Assembly: GCA_023267215.1 (NCBI GenBank) | Contig: JAHFNS010000002.1 | Span: 1-32,148 of the forward strand | Direction of reading: 5' to 3' | DNA: 32,148 nucleotides | From: Candidatus Nomurabacteria bacterium | Lineage (GTDB): Bacteria; Patescibacteriota; Minisyncoccia; Phycocordibacterales; UBA9973 | In this document: positions 3,012 through 32,148 of the stretch, piece after piece | How the letters are laid out: each line of letters opens with the position of its first letter | Position numbering within the stretch: position 1 is the stretch's first letter | Program-made: the position numbers and the translations under genes | Notes under the pieces: generated by a model | Seen by the model: the letters and a program-made list of their open reading frames with translations, nothing else | Told to the model about the DNA's origin: nothing | Database searches by the model: none

Positions 3012-3872
3012 ATGCAAAAAAATAATCTAAATTTCATATTTTGGGGGACACCAGATGTGGCAAGTGAGACACTCCAAATTTTAAAAGAGAATGGCTATAT
3101 ACCGTCGCTTATTATTACTGCACCTGACAAACCACAAGGCCGTAAAATGCTCATCACTCCCCCACCTGTCAAAGTCTGGGCAATAGAAAACAATATTCCG
3201 TATTTGCAACCAGAATCTTTCCTCGAAGCCCAGCTTAAGGGAACTTCTCCTAAGCTGGGCTTCGAGGAAACCCAACCTGATTTATTTATCGTTGTTGCTT
3301 ATGGAAAAATAATTCCAGAAAATATTATAAATTTACCAAAATTAGGCTCTATAAATATTCACTATTCCTTATTACCAAAATACCGAGGTGCTTCCCCTGT
3401 CGAATCTGCTATTTTAAATGGAGACATAGAAACAGGTGTAAGTATTCAAAAAATGGAATATAAAATGGACACAGGGCTAATAATAGCTCAAGAAAAAGTC
3501 GAAATAAAACCAAATGAAAAAGCAGCAGAATTACGAACTCGTTTGATAAAAATTGGAGGAGAACTATTGGTGAAAACTTTAAAGACCTCCTTGGCTAATG
3601 GCTACTCCCCCGACACCTCGGGAGAAAAACAAGACGAATCAAAAGCTACCTATTGCAAAAAAATTAAAAAAGAAGATGGACTCATAGATCTAAATGATGA
3701 TCCTATAAAAAATTACAACAAATTCCGCGCTTATGCCACTTGGCCTAGAACTTTCTTTTTCAAAGAAGGCAAAAGAATAATCATCACTGATGCTAAATTA
3801 GAAAATGGTGAATTTAAAATTCTAAAAATTATTCCCGAAGGCGGCAAAGAAATAAATTATATAAAAATATAA
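3012..3872 (+). CDS. fmt: methionyl-tRNA formyltransferase carrying an in-frame palindrome
   Basis: Formylates Met on initiator tRNA using 10-formyl-tetrahydrofolate. The N-terminal formyltransferase fold has IFWGTPDVA (9-17), PDKPQGRK (38-45) and the catalytic triad Asn115, His117 (SINIHYSLLPKYRGASP, 113-129) and Asp153 (MDTGLI). A short C-terminal domain follows, with QDESKATYCKKI (207-218) at the linker. At 286 residues it is a little shorter than usual, with the loss at the C-terminus. Residues about 69-86 (FLEAQLKGTSPKLGFEE) are encoded by a perfect 20-bp inverted repeat at 3218-3270. They lie just before the PDLFIVVAYGK strand, where family members have a variable stretch. The catalytic core is intact, so the enzyme is probably active. 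It converges with hpf. Confidence 0.95.
   Translation: MQKNNLNFIFWGTPDVASETLQILKENGYIPSLIITAPDKPQGRKMLITPPPVKVWAIENNIPYLQPESFLEAQLKGTSPKLGFEETQPDLFIVVAYGKIIPENIINLPKLGSINIHYSLLPKYRGASPVESAILNGDIETGVSIQKMEYKMDTGLIIAQEKVEIKPNEKAAELRTRLIKIGGELLVKTLKTSLANGYSPDTSGEKQDESKATYCKKIKKEDGLIDLNDDPIKNYNKFRAYATWPRTFFFKEGKRIIITDAKLENGEFKILKIIPEGGKEINYIKI
3218..3270. repeat. perfect 20-bp inverted repeat inside fmt (family B)
   Basis: The left arm at 3218-3237 (TTTCCTCGAAGCCCAGCTTA) is exactly complementary to 3251-3270, with a 13-nt loop. The frame of fmt is kept. Because the element is palindromic, the opposite strand encodes nearly the same peptide (FLEAQL...KLGFEE on both strands). The right-arm core CCTAAGCTGGGCTT (3249-3262) recurs at 4809-4822. 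This behaves like the coding-region palindromic elements known from Rickettsia. No homology to those is claimed. Confidence 0.85.
3605..3624. repeat. short imperfect hairpin inside fmt
   Basis: CTCC (3605-3608) plus CGA (3611-3613) pair with TCG plus GGAG (3618-3624), with a 2-nt bulge and a CACC loop. It is GC-rich against its surroundings and lies in the linker before QDESKATY. It may be the remnant of another small palindrome. The evidence is weak. Confidence 0.35.
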
Positions 3873-4333: not shown

Positions 4334-4789
4334 TTACTTTTTTATTTTTTTTGAATAGTCTTTTAAGAGCTTGGAAGAACTTCTTATTTTCCCACCTTTG
4401 CCAACATTAAATACCATTTTAATACCTAATTCATTACATAATTTGAATTCTGGAATATTATCCGCAAATCTATCTCCACCATTGGCAAAGATATGAGGTT
4501 TTATTTTTGACAATTCTTTACAAATACTTATATCTTTTGTGTTTTTTTTATGTTCTGAAATAAATACTTCATCTACATGACGAAAAGAAGAAATGACTTC
4601 AGCACGGTCTTTTTCACTCATAAAACCATTACCTTTTTTCATACGAATCCAGTTGTCATTATTAATAACTACCACTAATTTATCTCCGAGTTTTTTTGCC
4701 TCTTCAAAAAGACGTGTATGCCCCGGATGAATTGGATCAAAACCTCCACTAACCATCACTATTTTCTTTTGTTTTTTGTTGTTTTTCAT
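4334..4789 (-). CDS. cytidylyltransferase-family nucleotidyltransferase
   Basis: Small Rossmann-type nucleotidyltransferase (151 residues) of the glycerol-3-phosphate cytidylyltransferase/RfaE2 superfamily. It joins a nucleotide to a phosphorylated small molecule. GGFDPIHPGHTRLFEEAK (15-32) contains the H-x-G-H motif (HPGH, 21-24), and RSSSKLL (136-142) matches the ISSTxxR position. Family members use glycerol-3-phosphate, heptose-1-phosphate, ethanolamine-phosphate or FMN, and the substrate cannot be decided from sequence. I start at the ATG at 4789. The frame is open up to 4855, but that part overlaps the upstream gene and is made of a palindromic repeat. An AGGAGG at about 4834-4839 is too far from this ATG to be its ribosome site. 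Confidence 0.8.
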   Translation of the reverse strand: MKNNKKQKKIVMVSGGFDPIHPGHTRLFEEAKKLGDKLVVVINNDNWIRMKKGNGFMSEKDRAEVISSFRHVDEVFISEHKKNTKDISICKELSKIKPHIFANGGDRFADNIPEFKLCNELGIKMVFNVGKGGKIRSSSKLLKDYSKKIKK

Positions 4790-4808
4790 AAAACTGTGGA
4801 TAACTGCC

Positions 4809-4825
4809 CCTAAGCTGGGCTTAGG
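4809..4825. repeat. short palindrome, family B core
   Basis: CCTAAGC-TGG-GCTTAGG hairpin in the spacer between the Cys-rich gene and the nucleotidyltransferase. CCTAAGCTGGGCTT (4809-4822) is identical to 3249-3262 in fmt, so this is a second, shorter copy of the same element. Confidence 0.7.
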
Positions 4826-4830
4826 AGAAA

Positions 4831-6615
4831 TTAATATACCTCCTGCTGATAACATTTTTCACAATATACTATATCACCTTTTTCTGGGTCATAACCTGTT
4901 TTGAATTTTTCTCCGCATGGACCATCTCCATGTAAATGTTTTATTGTATTTTTATAAATTCCAGTAATATCTTCTGTACCATTACACATACATTTTTGAT
5001 CATAAAGTTTTACACCTAAACGCATTTTTAATCTTTCCATTGTTCGACAAGTAGGACAAAGCGTCGGCATAGGTACACCAATCTTGCGATAAAACTGAAG
5101 CTCGTTTGGAATAATGCGAAAAGCTTTAGTGCAATTATGATTACATTTCGTTTTGTGAGAACATTCAATAACTTCTTCTGTAGTTTTATCATCCGTTTTC
5201 GTAATATCATCAGGTATATTTGAAGACAAAATAGTGGGTTGATAATTTTTTACATCTGGTTCACGCCATCTAAATCCTTTCGCAATTACCTCTTCTTTGG
5301 TAAGCGGAAAATACTCTTGTGCGATAGTTTCATTATAAGCCCAAGGACTCATCTCAACTGGATAAAATTCACCATACTTATATACACGACCCATTTTGTC
5401 TACATATGGCATTTCATCCATGTGTTTTTTTATTTTTTCTACCAGTTTTTCATATTCTTCCTTTTTATATTTTTTATTTAAAATACAATATTGCTTTTTT
5501 TGTATTCCCACACATCCAAAAATATCCTCTGACCCTCTACAACTTATCGTATATTCAGTATCGTGGGTGCTTTCTTGGGTTAAGAATGCAAATTTTATAT
5601 TCCCTACACCAGAACCACAAGAAATAGCCTCATACACCAACTCTGCTGCATCTCCCCAGTTTGAATAATCATAACAATCTTTTGAACCTGGTGTTTCTTG
5701 GATATATTGACAATATTTTAAATTTTCACTTTCTCTTATTAAAAAAGACTCTTTAACATTTTTGGAATTCGTTACATATGAACCTATACAGTTTAAATTC
5801 TTTAAACCCTGATGATTTTTATTTGGAAATTTTTTCCAAAAAGTTTCTACATTATTTTGTGCCTTTTCAATACCAACTCTTGTATGTAAATTATATTCTT
5901 TAACTTTCTTTTCATATTCTTCTTTGTTATATTGTTCATTAAAAAAATAATAATTTTTACTTCGCAGATTTACACAACCAAAACAATTCATACAACCTAC
6001 ACAATCTTTACAAAACCATAAATCACTAGAATCAGCGCATTGCAAAGAATAATATACCTTGTAGCATGTATCTAGCCAAAAACTTTGGTAACAAGTTTCA
6101 GATTTTGAAATATGAGACACATCTACACAATCACGTGAAAAATTGATACCATTGGAATACATACAATCTTCTGGACAAGTGGTATTAAAAACAAGATAAC
6201 AATTTTTAGGATCAGTGGCATTATTTGAATAATTACTATTTACCCCACGAACCATATTATTGGACTTAAAAGGAACTTCTAGCATTAATTCATAAAGTTG
6301 AGTTAAAAATGGTCGAGTCCAATCAATATCCTTTCCATAATCCATCGCATCCCATTTGTCAGAAAGCCAGACGTCCCTTTCATAAATTTTTACTGGCGAA
6401 TCAGAAGAATACATAGAAAAAATTTCTTTACCAGAAAAGTCACATTTTCTTTTATATAAACCTCGTTCATTACGAAAAGCCCAACGTCTTTGTGTACGAC
6501 AAGGTGGACAAAAAGTCGGTGGAGGGACTTTGATTTTTTCATAAAAATTAAAGTCTTCTGGCTCAATAGTGAAGTCTTGTTTGCAGTTTTGGCAGTTTCT
6601 AGTCTCGGAATTCAT
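4831..6615 (-). CDS. large Cys-rich protein with zinc-ribbon-like ends, unknown function
   Basis: 594 residues with no function I can name. The N-terminus has C8-x2-C11 and C36-x2-C39 around FTIEPEDFNFYEKIKVPPPT. The C-terminus repeats this plan: C485/C491/C495 and C520-x2-C523 around FRIIPNELQFYRKIGVPMPT, then more Cys pairs (542/544, 585/588). So two homologous ribbon-like modules bracket the protein. The middle (about 135-380) has many spaced Cys and short repeats: GCVNLRSKNYYFFNEQYNKE (213-232, ending KEEYEK) is echoed by GCVGIQKKQYCILNKKYKKE (367-386). Such regular Cys/aromatic spacing could form a repeat solenoid. There is no signal peptide, so it is probably cytoplasmic and metal-binding. 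I recall similar proteins only from CPR genomes. TATAAT at 6622-6627 ends 6 nt before the ATG. Confidence 0.75.
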   Translation of the reverse strand: MNSETRNCQNCKQDFTIEPEDFNFYEKIKVPPPTFCPPCRTQRRWAFRNERGLYKRKCDFSGKEIFSMYSSDSPVKIYERDVWLSDKWDAMDYGKDIDWTRPFLTQLYELMLEVPFKSNNMVRGVNSNYSNNATDPKNCYLVFNTTCPEDCMYSNGINFSRDCVDVSHISKSETCYQSFWLDTCYKVYYSLQCADSSDLWFCKDCVGCMNCFGCVNLRSKNYYFFNEQYNKEEYEKKVKEYNLHTRVGIEKAQNNVETFWKKFPNKNHQGLKNLNCIGSYVTNSKNVKESFLIRESENLKYCQYIQETPGSKDCYDYSNWGDAAELVYEAISCGSGVGNIKFAFLTQESTHDTEYTISCRGSEDIFGCVGIQKKQYCILNKKYKKEEYEKLVEKIKKHMDEMPYVDKMGRVYKYGEFYPVEMSPWAYNETIAQEYFPLTKEEVIAKGFRWREPDVKNYQPTILSSNIPDDITKTDDKTTEEVIECSHKTKCNHNCTKAFRIIPNELQFYRKIGVPMPTLCPTCRTMERLKMRLGVKLYDQKCMCNGTEDITGIYKNTIKHLHGDGPCGEKFKTGYDPEKGDIVYCEKCYQQEVY

Positions 6616-6668: not shown

Positions 6669-7091
6669 ATGTATATAATATATGCTTTATTAGGGGCTCT
6701 TATGGCAAGTTTGGGAACAATTTTTGCTAAACTTGGACTCAAAGGAGTGGATGCAAATTTACTTACAGCTATTCGAGGTATTACAATGGCTGTCATTGTC
6801 TCTATAGCTGCATTATCTTTTGGTAAATTAACAATAACAGCTCTTTCTTCTCTATCCTCAAAACAGTGGATTTTTGTTCTTCTCTCAGGCGTTGGTGGAG
6901 CTTTGTCTTGGATATTCTTCTATCAAGCCCTATCTGTCGGGCCTACAGTCGCTGTGACAGTCATAGATAAATTATCTGTAGTCTTTACTGCAATTCTTGC
7001 TGTCGTCGTTTTAACAGAAGGAATTACCTTACAGACAGGTATAGGCCTCGCACTTGTTTTAGCGGGTACATTACTTGTGGCTATACACTAA
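6669..7091 (+). CDS. EamA/DMT-family membrane protein, single-repeat
   Basis: 140 very hydrophobic residues with about five membrane segments: 1-20, 33-54, 66-86, 92-115 and 120-139. This is the EamA half-transporter pattern. GALMASLGTIFAKLGLKGVD (9-28) and LSVGPTVAVTVIDKLSVVFT (88-107) match the family's conserved parts (a substrate/helix segment, and the P-T-x-V plus final-helix-pair block). Full DMT transporters have two such repeats. A one-repeat protein must dimerize, as the SMR and COG2510-type relatives do. The substrate is unknown. The gene ends exactly where the 7092-7204 palindromic element begins. Confidence 0.85.
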   Translation: MYIIYALLGALMASLGTIFAKLGLKGVDANLLTAIRGITMAVIVSIAALSFGKLTITALSSLSSKQWIFVLLSGVGGALSWIFFYQALSVGPTVAVTVIDKLSVVFTAILAVVVLTEGITLQTGIGLALVLAGTLLVAIH

Positions 7092-7204
7092 AAAAATCTA
7101 AAGTAAATTAATACTTTCTGCAACATACGCTTCCTAAAGAAAGTATATTGTTTTCAGGTTGATATGCGAGTTGCAAGAAAGTAGTTAATTTATTCTAGAT
7201 TTTT
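7092..7204. repeat. palindromic element family A, copy 1 (intergenic)
   Basis: A hairpin of about 113 nt that fills the gap between two convergent genes. The inner stem TACTTTCTGCAAC (7112-7124) pairs with 7170-7183 around one bulged A. The outer stem (about 7093-7111 with about 7185-7204) continues imperfectly through AAAATCTA and TAAATTAA. A 26-nt block at 7146-7171 is identical to 19113-19138 inside tgt. The loop starts with the shared ATACGCT. It could also act as a bidirectional terminator, since it lies between two gene ends. Confidence 0.85.
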
Positions 7205-7208
7205 GATT

Positions 7209-7883
7209 TTATTTAATTAAGAAACTCAATGTAGAAACTAAACGTATCTTTTTGTATTCAGGTGATCCTGGATCTTTATCTGTAATATCAAATACTCCTT
7301 GGTTCCCGCGATGAAGTCCTCCTAAACTAGATCCTGATTCTTGAGCAATTTTTTGTGCTGTTTCTCGGGCATTTTTTAACGCTTCAGCTAACATTTCTGG
7401 TTTGATACTATTGATATCTGAAAATTCAAATGAAACAGAATTTTGATTCATTACAATCCCATTTTTTACTAAAATCAAAGTATCTTTTGATGCAGTTTTC
7501 ATTAAATCTACTTTTTTGGTATAAACAGAAAGTTGAGTAGTTGAATTGTATCTAAACAATGCATCTTTATAAGTATCTTGATATGTATTTACCGGAGCAA
7601 CATTTATTTCTGATTCTTCAAAACCTTTTTCCTTCAAAAAGGATTTTATAGTAGCAACATTTTTTTCTATATCAGCATATAAAGAATCAACATTATTTGA
7701 TTTAACTTCAAAGTTAATTGACCAAATAGCTGTGTCTGCTTTTACTATTTTTTCAGATAATCCCTTTACTTCAACATAAGATCCTTGTTTTGAAAAATCT
7801 TGTGCTGAAAAGAAAAACACGACAGAAAAGATTAATAACACTGCTCCTATAATCCAAACGCTATAATTTTTTATATTTTCCAT
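7209..7883 (-). CDS. SIMPL-domain (DUF541) protein, membrane-anchored
   Basis: 224 residues: one N-terminal membrane anchor (about 7-27), then a SIMPL/DUF541 domain. Its usual opening is V-x-G-x-S/A-x3-x-V-x-A-D-x-A, seen here as VKGLSEKIVKADTAIWSINF (39-58). The rest continues with KSFLKEKGFEESEINVAPVN (84-103), a TTQLSVYTKKVD strand and AEALKNARETAQKIAQESG near 166-184. Family members face the outside of the membrane and form oligomers. Their molecular role is poorly defined (stress tolerance and signalling have been suggested). A TATAGT box at 7893-7898 lies 9 nt before the ATG. It converges on the EamA gene across the family A palindrome. Confidence 0.85.
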   Translation of the reverse strand: MENIKNYSVWIIGAVLLIFSVVFFFSAQDFSKQGSYVEVKGLSEKIVKADTAIWSINFEVKSNNVDSLYADIEKNVATIKSFLKEKGFEESEINVAPVNTYQDTYKDALFRYNSTTQLSVYTKKVDLMKTASKDTLILVKNGIVMNQNSVSFEFSDINSIKPEMLAEALKNARETAQKIAQESGSSLGGLHRGNQGVFDITDKDPGSPEYKKIRLVSTLSFLIK

Positions 7884-18488: not shown

Positions 18489-19814
18489 TTATTTCAAATA
18501 TTCCTTCAAAAATTCTTCTTTAAATTCAAAAAACTTATTATCTAAAATTGATTGGCGAATATTGTCTACTAGATGAGTGATGAAATGTAAGTTGTGTATA
18601 GAAGCAAGCGTGCCAGCCAACATTTCTTTTCCATGGAAAAGGTGTGCGATGTAGCTCTTTGTATAGTTCTTGCACGTATAACACTCACAATCTTTTTCTA
18701 TTGGCTCGAAATCATCTCTAAATTTTTTATTAGTAATTATTATTTTTCCATTTTTTGTATAGATAGTTCCATTTCTTCCAAGCCTTGTTGGTAAAACACA
18801 ATCAAAAAGATCCACACCATTCTCTATGCCCATAAATAAATCTTCTGGTTCCCCTATCCCGAGTAAATGACGAGGTTTCTCTTCCGGTAATATTTCATTC
18901 ACCCACCTCACAGCAGAAGACATATCTTCTTTTGCAAAAGAACCACCGATGCCAAAACCATCAAAATATCTTCCATCTACATTCGTCTCTGCAATAATTT
19001 TTGCAGATTTTTTTCGCAAAGATTCTTCACGCCCACCCTGAACAATACCAAACAGTGCTTGGGGAAAATTAAAAGAAGTACTTTTTGCGACATACGCTAC
19101 GTCAGTTTCGTTTATTGTTTTCAGGTTGATATGCGAGTCGCTAAAAAGTAGCTTCTTTTGATTTTCCAATTTTAAATGCTCCACCAAACTTCTCTCTGCC
19201 CAACGATGTGTACGTTCTAATGCTTCTTCTTGATATTTTAAATCTTCGGCTGGACTTGTACACTCATCAAAAGCAAAAATTATGTCTGCACCGAGATTGT
19301 GCTGAATTTGGATTGATTTCTCTGGGGTGATGTAATGAATTGAGCCATCTAGATGAGATTTAAAAGAAACCCCATCTTGCCCTATTTTTGCAAGTCTAGG
19401 TGCATCAGAATCATCAAATCTCTCTGGTATTAATAATGAAGGATCAGTAATTTTAGTAATTTTAGATATATCTTTTCCATAAGCAACTCCAAGAGAGAAA
19501 ACTTGAAAACCTCCAGAGTCGGTCATGGTCGGCCCTTTCCAATTCATAAATCTACCAATGCCACCAGCGTCACGCACTATTTCATCTCCTGGTTGTAAAA
19601 ATAAATGATACGTATTTCCTAACACTACCTGTGTACCAGCGTCACGAACTTGTTCAGGGTTTAAAGATTTCACTGTCGCTTTCGTCCCGACAGCAACAAA
19701 AGCCGGAGTTTTAATTTCTCCATGTGGAGTCGTTAACAGTCCCACTCTTCCCAGATATGTTTTACCGGCTTCGCCTTTGCTATTTTCTAATTTTTTCTCA
19801 ATTTTAAATTGCAT
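18489..19814 (-). CDS. tgt: tRNA-guanine transglycosylase with inserted palindrome-encoded peptide
   Basis: Exchanges G34 for a queuine precursor in GUN-anticodon tRNAs. MTDSGGFQVFSL (97-108, Asp99), PQALFGIVQGG (251-261) and FDCVLPTRLGRNGT (337-350, nucleophile Asp337) are the catalytic blocks. Zn ligands are C376, C378, C381 and H407, with exact family spacing. At 441 residues it is longer than the usual 370-380 because of two insertions. Residues about 109-142 (GVAYGKDISKITKITD onward) interrupt the block after FSL. Residues about 219-247 between the AERSLVEH helix and PQALFG are encoded by palindromic element A (19071-19159). Both insertions lie in surface loops, so the enzyme may be active. 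The ATG overlaps the mreC stop by one base. Confidence 0.94.
   Translation of the reverse strand: MQFKIEKKLENSKGEAGKTYLGRVGLLTTPHGEIKTPAFVAVGTKATVKSLNPEQVRDAGTQVVLGNTYHLFLQPGDEIVRDAGGIGRFMNWKGPTMTDSGGFQVFSLGVAYGKDISKITKITDPSLLIPERFDDSDAPRLAKIGQDGVSFKSHLDGSIHYITPEKSIQIQHNLGADIIFAFDECTSPAEDLKYQEEALERTHRWAERSLVEHLKLENQKKLLFSDSHINLKTINETDVAYVAKSTSFNFPQALFGIVQGGREESLRKKSAKIIAETNVDGRYFDGFGIGGSFAKEDMSSAVRWVNEILPEEKPRHLLGIGEPEDLFMGIENGVDLFDCVLPTRLGRNGTIYTKNGKIIITNKKFRDDFEPIEKDCECYTCKNYTKSYIAHLFHGKEMLAGTLASIHNLHFITHLVDNIRQSILDNKFFEFKEEFLKEYLK
19071..19159. repeat. palindromic element family A, copy 2, in frame inside tgt
   Basis: Arms AAAAGAAG-TACTTTTT-GCGAC (from 19071) and GTCGC-T-AAAAAGTA-G-CTTCTTTT (to 19159) pair fully with two single-base bulges. 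The bulges sit at the same two places as in copy 1. The loop shares ACATACGCT and the 26-nt block 19113-19138 with copy 1. On the minus strand it is read through in the tgt frame without a stop, giving about 28 extra residues. Confidence 0.9.
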
Positions 19815-32050: not shown

Positions 32051-32105
32051 TTCTATATAAATAATATAGCATTTTAAGGCAAAAAAGCAAATAAAAAAAC
32101 ACAAA

Positions 32106-32148
32106 TTAATACCTTCTGCAACATACGCTTCTAGAAATTAGTCTATGG
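32106..32148. repeat. palindromic element family A, copy 3 (left half, cut by window end)
   Basis: TACCTTCTGCAAC (32110-32122) followed by ATACGCTTC matches the left arm and loop start of copy 1, which has TACTTTCTGCAAC. The upstream AATTAA is also shared. The right arm would lie beyond the window. Confidence 0.75.

Follow-up and report, generated by a model that had tools for sequence, protein, structure and literature searches.

Palindromes within protein-coding sequence have hitherto been considered peculiar to Rickettsia and Wolbachia. The Rickettsia palindromic elements RPE-1 to RPE-10 and the palindromic elements of Wolbachia comprise several families of ~100-150 bp, which lie in frame within genes, are translated and are solvent-exposed in the protein. 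Different groups can occur at one and the same site of a gene (PMC3767692, PMC2229807, PMC10969869). For Rickettsia, it was left open whether such shared sites are insertion hot spots or carry one diverged insert (PMC3767692). REPs measure 20-40 bp, are mostly extragenic and have an unpaired tag at their foot (PMC3733652). Bacterial MITEs (Correia/NEMIS, ERIC, RUP) are short, form long stem-loops and are sometimes fused in frame (PMC2229807, PMC10969869). In Nematomorpha mitochondria, long inverted repeats occur in translated genes, and each of the two arms codes for conserved protein segments (PMC6649704). Furthermore, template switching creates and repairs stems and causes multi-base compensatory changes (PMC8794818). 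A literature search for palindromic elements in Patescibacteria, CPR, Parcubacteria and Nomurabacteria found no report, which by itself does not prove novelty.

The stretch of DNA analysed here (32,148 nt, the window) corresponds to G000:C20:1-32148 of a 797-kb genome in 21 contigs, which is of the type of Candidatus Nomurabacteria, tiny bacteria that are uncultured. Its tgt gene contains a palindrome, designated F1, and further F1 copies were located by searches of the genome (Table 1). The encoded Tgt has intact catalytic and zinc motifs by reading (VDLFDCVLPTR, CECYTCK), and its AlphaFold2 model, with a mean pLDDT of 82.7, has Z. mobilis TGT (1q2r) as structural match (TM 0.78 and 0.91). 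In the model, the insert appears to sit in a loop between helix 191-224 and strand 252-257, and most of it has a pLDDT below 50 (226-233, 236-245). Residues 102-139 (window about 19398-19511), which are missing in Z. mobilis TGT, also have a pLDDT below 50 and are present in most relatives. They may represent an older insert.

Table 1. Location of tgt, its insert and the palindromes of the window genome
Feature	Position	Strand	Evidence or remark
tgt, queuine tRNA-ribosyltransferase	18489..19814	-	Pfam PF01702 (3.6e-133); AF2 model; Z. mobilis TGT as PDB match
Coding insert of Tgt, residues 216-251 (ENQKKLLFSDSHINLKTINETDVAYVAKSTSFNFPQ)	19062..19169	-	Alignment of 68 relatives
F1 palindromic element in tgt	19063..19167	-	Sequence, fold, seven genomic copies, covariation
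Intergenic F1 copy	7092..7204	+	Sequence, fold
Third F1 copy, left part	32094..32148	+	Runs past the window end to about 32198 (G000:C20)
Four further F1 copies outside the window	C20:256107, C15:209635, C15:223013, C15:329169		
F7 palindrome, near-perfect, in frame in fmt (LEAQLKGTSPKLGFEETQ)	3218..3270	+	

A preliminary description of the window had reported an in-frame palindrome in tgt at window positions 19071-19159. The palindrome was confirmed, and these positions are its inner part. The arms (19063-19091 and 19137-19167) are predicted to fold into a single long stem, from which the T at 19142 and the G at 19151 bulge out (-42.2 kcal/mol, + strand). According to a DNA search, F1 is present in seven copies in this genome, one in frame in tgt and six intergenic, with a palindrome length of 99-120 nt. 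One intergenic copy fills the space between the convergent genes for an EamA-like protein (6669-7091, +) and a SIMPL protein (7209-7883, -). As described before, this copy and that in tgt have their bulges at matching places and differ by two compensating changes in the inner stem, both of which are exact. Two F1 subtypes exist in the genome, one on contig C20 and the other on C15. Among 60 genomes of the same genus, seven contain F1, and mnmA of L082 holds two in-frame copies. As a palindromic repeat with several genomic copies, F1 resembles the RPEs, and the comparison with them that had been drawn for a repeated, translated palindromic element is supported. The likeness concerns the kind of element as set by description; membership by descent is not claimed, and the phylum is a different one.

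The site in tgt is filled in some relatives and empty in others. Of the 68 Tgt relatives fetched, 65 cover the site. The distance between HxKL and ALFGIVQGG, counted from the conserved His, amounts to 8-19 residues in 29 of the 65 and to 29-74 residues in the remaining 36. The empty form reads HxKL-NTENKI-ALFG, and in the window form NTENKI is replaced by a sequence that makes the protein about 30 residues longer. Empty alleles occur in close relatives, and orthologues from other lineages are without the insert. The 36 inserts are 87-222 nt long, and nearly all of them form strong long hairpins. Like RPEs in conserved genes, all 36 preserve the frame (length a multiple of 3) and are open in it, whereas each of the other two sense frames is open in only 6 of the 36. 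The inserts are apparently translated, and these frame statistics show that only versions which keep the frame and lack stops survive at the docking site.

By DNA similarity, the 36 inserts form at least 14 clusters, F1 and a second family, F2, falling into one cluster via one species that has both in tandem. Unlike RPEs, this system has over a dozen unrelated clusters at a single site. On a Tgt tree calculated without the insert columns, about 33 changes are counted for the insert family and about 16 for occupancy; these counts are approximate because the overall tree support is low. One clade of four very close species with an SH-aLRT of 100 (L020, L021, L027, L047) displays four different insert states. 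The F3 inserts of three tgt genes are 85-91% identical, while their host genes share 71% and their third codon positions 43-47% identity. That the inserts are far more alike than the genes around them reflects element movement and not descent. A second in-frame insertion site is found near Tgt residue 383 (L036, L030, L013, L027, L066 and others), and some of the inserts there match palindromes of the main site. The tgt inserts of L042 and L071 hold GTCATTCCCGC...GCGGGAATCC, translated as VIPAQAGIQ, which we take to be a repeat that also occurs in other phyla. A record titled Burkholderiales (L016) carries a Nomurabacteria-type tgt and is probably a mis-binned contig.

F2, first found in tgt, matches 42 of the 60 same-genus genomes; among 147 further genomes from the order, only about 8 match. 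Approximately 30 strong copies were read in context, and practically all lie in frame inside genes, namely tgt, tsaD, a uvrD-like helicase gene, leuS, ileS, polA, recG, mnmA and fmt. In-frame residence in these nine gene types is RPE-like; in contrast to RPEs, F2 is located almost exclusively inside genes and in both orientations, being translated either as GVSQADGPRGSAP...DSDP or as GSLSPRARGALPLGSSACETP. It shares sites with other families. At one mnmA site, F1 is found in one genome and F2 in a second, and at the fmt site F7 is present in the window genome and F2 in another genome (L134). In the window genome, F7 has a second good copy at C15:36424-36476 (92% identical, in frame in lepA) and weaker ones elsewhere. 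A diverged inverted relative of the fmt palindrome is located at 4798-4830 of the window, where it overlaps the start of ORF 4334-4855 (SPKPSLGAV).

At the tsaD site, 28-52 residues with a hairpin, from F2 and other families, were found in 29 fetched same-genus genes, a sample biased to filled genes since these loci scored best for an F2-bearing query. Nine to 23 residues are present in 24 tsaD genes of other genera, and the site is empty in at least a dozen further genomes of the genus (split match, at most ~45 nt between the pieces). A scan for inverted repeats yielded 70 at a score of 16 or more vs 1 in the codon-shuffled control and recovers only about half of the tgt inserts. A hairpin scan based on folded-pair counts gave similar results for real and shuffled sequence and was therefore set aside. 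L147 and L151 encode an isoleucyl-tRNA synthetase with both an F2 palindrome and a histidine-phosphatase domain in mid-protein (PF00300; Pfam on L147 only). Another family, in which GGATTTTTTGAAGCTTAAAAAATCC adjoins GTTCTCGGCTCGTCAGCCTCGAAACC (L156:540-650, L157:540-650, L023:2074-2190), looked intergenic or gene-end where read and has a sub-hairpin in common with F2.

The outer stems differ from site to site. In F2, the shared core comprises 63 nt, and the flanking stems of 15-25 bp are gene-specific and reach into conserved host codons. In tgt of L026, the host residues H Q K L are specified by the left arm CATCAAAAATTG, of which the right arm CAATTTTTGATG is an exact inverted copy. L070 has the same arm pair with a synonymous change in the Lys codon, which is mirrored in the opposite arm. 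In the tsaD genes of L179 and L190, the host codons for EEAR lie within the arm. Such inverted copying of host codons into an arm is a difference from RPEs. In Nematomorpha, conserved protein parts are encoded by both arms; here, the palindrome is an addition to the protein. At some sites, the outermost ends are shared between alleles: Filled tgt alleles often have KLExxK at the left end of the insert and PQ or FSP at its right end before ALFG, and tsaD alleles have the ends KEKQ ... FSFS around different cores. Such common ends suggest that a resident palindrome may have its core exchanged. Part of the turnover may therefore be core replacement in an inherited palindrome and not fresh insertion. 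The arms could also be kept by selection.

Pairing was quantified in 24 aligned F1 copies. Standard pairs occupy 93.6% of the cells vs 79.8% in shuffled alignments, 19 of the 32 stem pairs have changed on both sides vs 11.5 in shuffles, and the covariation score is 0.405 vs 0.147. None of 500 shuffles reached the observed value for pairing, two-sided changes or covariation. When the alignment was slid by 1-3 columns, pairing collapsed to about 45-50%. This means, pairing is kept while the sequence drifts, as had been proposed, and the arms of the further copies do co-vary. If pairing of the mRNA were selected, more G-U than A-C mismatches would be expected on the transcribed strand, since A-C forms no pair. 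Among the isolated mismatches, the stems of the tgt and tsaD inserts have 15 G-U vs 22 A-C on the mRNA strand (p = 0.32) and the F1 stems 21 G-U vs 15 A-C on the element strand (p = 0.41); with 37 and 36 mismatches, respectively, the power of this test is modest. As neither strand has an excess of G-U, pairing looks like Watson-Crick symmetry kept at the DNA level, which is expected from inverted copying, and the implied earlier reading that the RNA fold is preserved is not supported.

A functional RNA hairpin, whose pairing in the mRNA is selected for regulation, translational pausing or transcript stability with the peptide as a by-product, would account for the strong F1 covariation and for stems that are long both in genes and intergenically. 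It is nevertheless unlikely: Apart from the wobble data, F2 is used in both orientations, one site holds unrelated sequences with different internal architecture, close relatives have empty alleles, and no Rfam family corresponds (Rfam 15 gave no match above the gathering score and nothing credible at relaxed thresholds). DNA-level copying best explains the compensating changes. Another rival is a single inherited insert that has diverged beyond recognition in its descendants, and the common ends of many filled tgt alleles and of tsaD alleles with different cores speak for it. Yet, the same cores recur across genes and genomes, the F3 inserts exceed their hosts in similarity, F2 is found in either orientation at one site, and close relatives have wholly unrelated cores or none. 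For the cores, single inheritance is disfavoured, and as a general explanation we give it little credence; inheritance of the outermost stem is possible.

That the extra residues help the proteins has some appeal, since insert and frame are kept in many species and the inserts are in a modelled loop. However, the same site encodes unrelated peptides, opposite orientations yield different ones, empty alleles recur, and the modelled Tgt insert is mostly of low confidence. Adaptive loops are accordingly very improbable. A stable hairpin within a conserved gene could finally indicate that the element is removed from the mRNA or skipped by the ribosome in an intron-like or bypass manner. In this case, the perfect frame and stop avoidance of the tgt inserts would be needless, so that such an event is hardly to be expected.

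How the elements move was considered with respect to known systems. Like the REP/Y1 system, F1 consists of dispersed imperfect hairpins, most of which by eye show GYAG with a bulged G, and 44 of the 60 genomes encode Y1 transposases, with up to 13 genes per genome. Unlike REPs, F1 comprises ~100 nt, and its GTA is paired with only the G bulged vs an unpaired GTAG or CGTC tag in REPs. In the 26 Y1 loci read (L091-L116), neither F1 nor the other studied palindromes flanked the gene; only other hairpins were beside it. Many Y1 genes adjoin short hairpins of their own, of the TGTCAAGG...CCTTGACA type, and one hairpin ~400 nt downstream of a Y1 gene matched a tgt insert (L024). A Y1/REP transposase was rejected as mobiliser, since the genes are present but the flanking hairpins differ, and the search through the Y1 genes of 60 genomes and these 26 loci identified no mobilising enzyme tied to the elements. 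With MITEs, the elements share their short length, a non-coding origin and terminal inverted repeats in the form of long complementary arms in all copies. In contrast to MITEs, no terminal repeats are common to all copies, the outer stems are site-specific, no cognate transposase was identified, and no target-site duplication was established at the sites read. The element ends cannot be fixed because the arms merge into host sequence. Integron attC sites were rejected, as TTGCGAC/GTCGC and CTGCAAC/GTTGC do not fit the end boxes RYYYAAC / GTTRRRY. A DNA-uptake sequence would require far more than the 2-13 copies per genome, and a phage origin of F2 was dismissed after 0 matches in 50,697 phage records.

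The observations are probably best explained by mobile cores similar to RPEs that dock at permissive loops within genes and whose arms are rewritten by inverted copying. According to this model, the tgt palindrome would belong to one family out of many, all of them short, palindromic and probably non-autonomous mobile elements with a few fixed docking sites in housekeeping genes of the genus and with intergenic sites besides. A docked element would be translated as an extra surface loop. The distribution shows that its core moves between sites and genomes and that unrelated cores take its place at a given site. Outside this core, the stem would be made on site: At several sites, one arm is host sequence and the other its inverted copy, and replication template switching or hairpin-primed copying is the presumed mechanism. 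Template-switch hairpin mutations likewise arise by inverted copying, which in this case would act on mobile cores within genes. More speculatively, a dedicated process might swap unrelated palindromic cores at fixed in-frame sites of genes for tRNA modification, translation and repair by targeting the resident hairpin and rewriting flanking codons as arms; this extension is doubtful.

In dozens of species, unrelated families share a single codon position in tgt and a second site in tsaD, which speaks for recurrent occupation. With these elements, the alternative between hot spots and a diverged insert that was formulated for Rickettsia becomes testable. Inverted copying of host codons would provide a concrete DNA-level route to hairpins inside genes. 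At the same time, it cautions against taking compensating stem changes alone as proof of a functional RNA. Finally, genomes of only ~0.8 Mb appear to tolerate ~30 extra residues in conserved enzymes.
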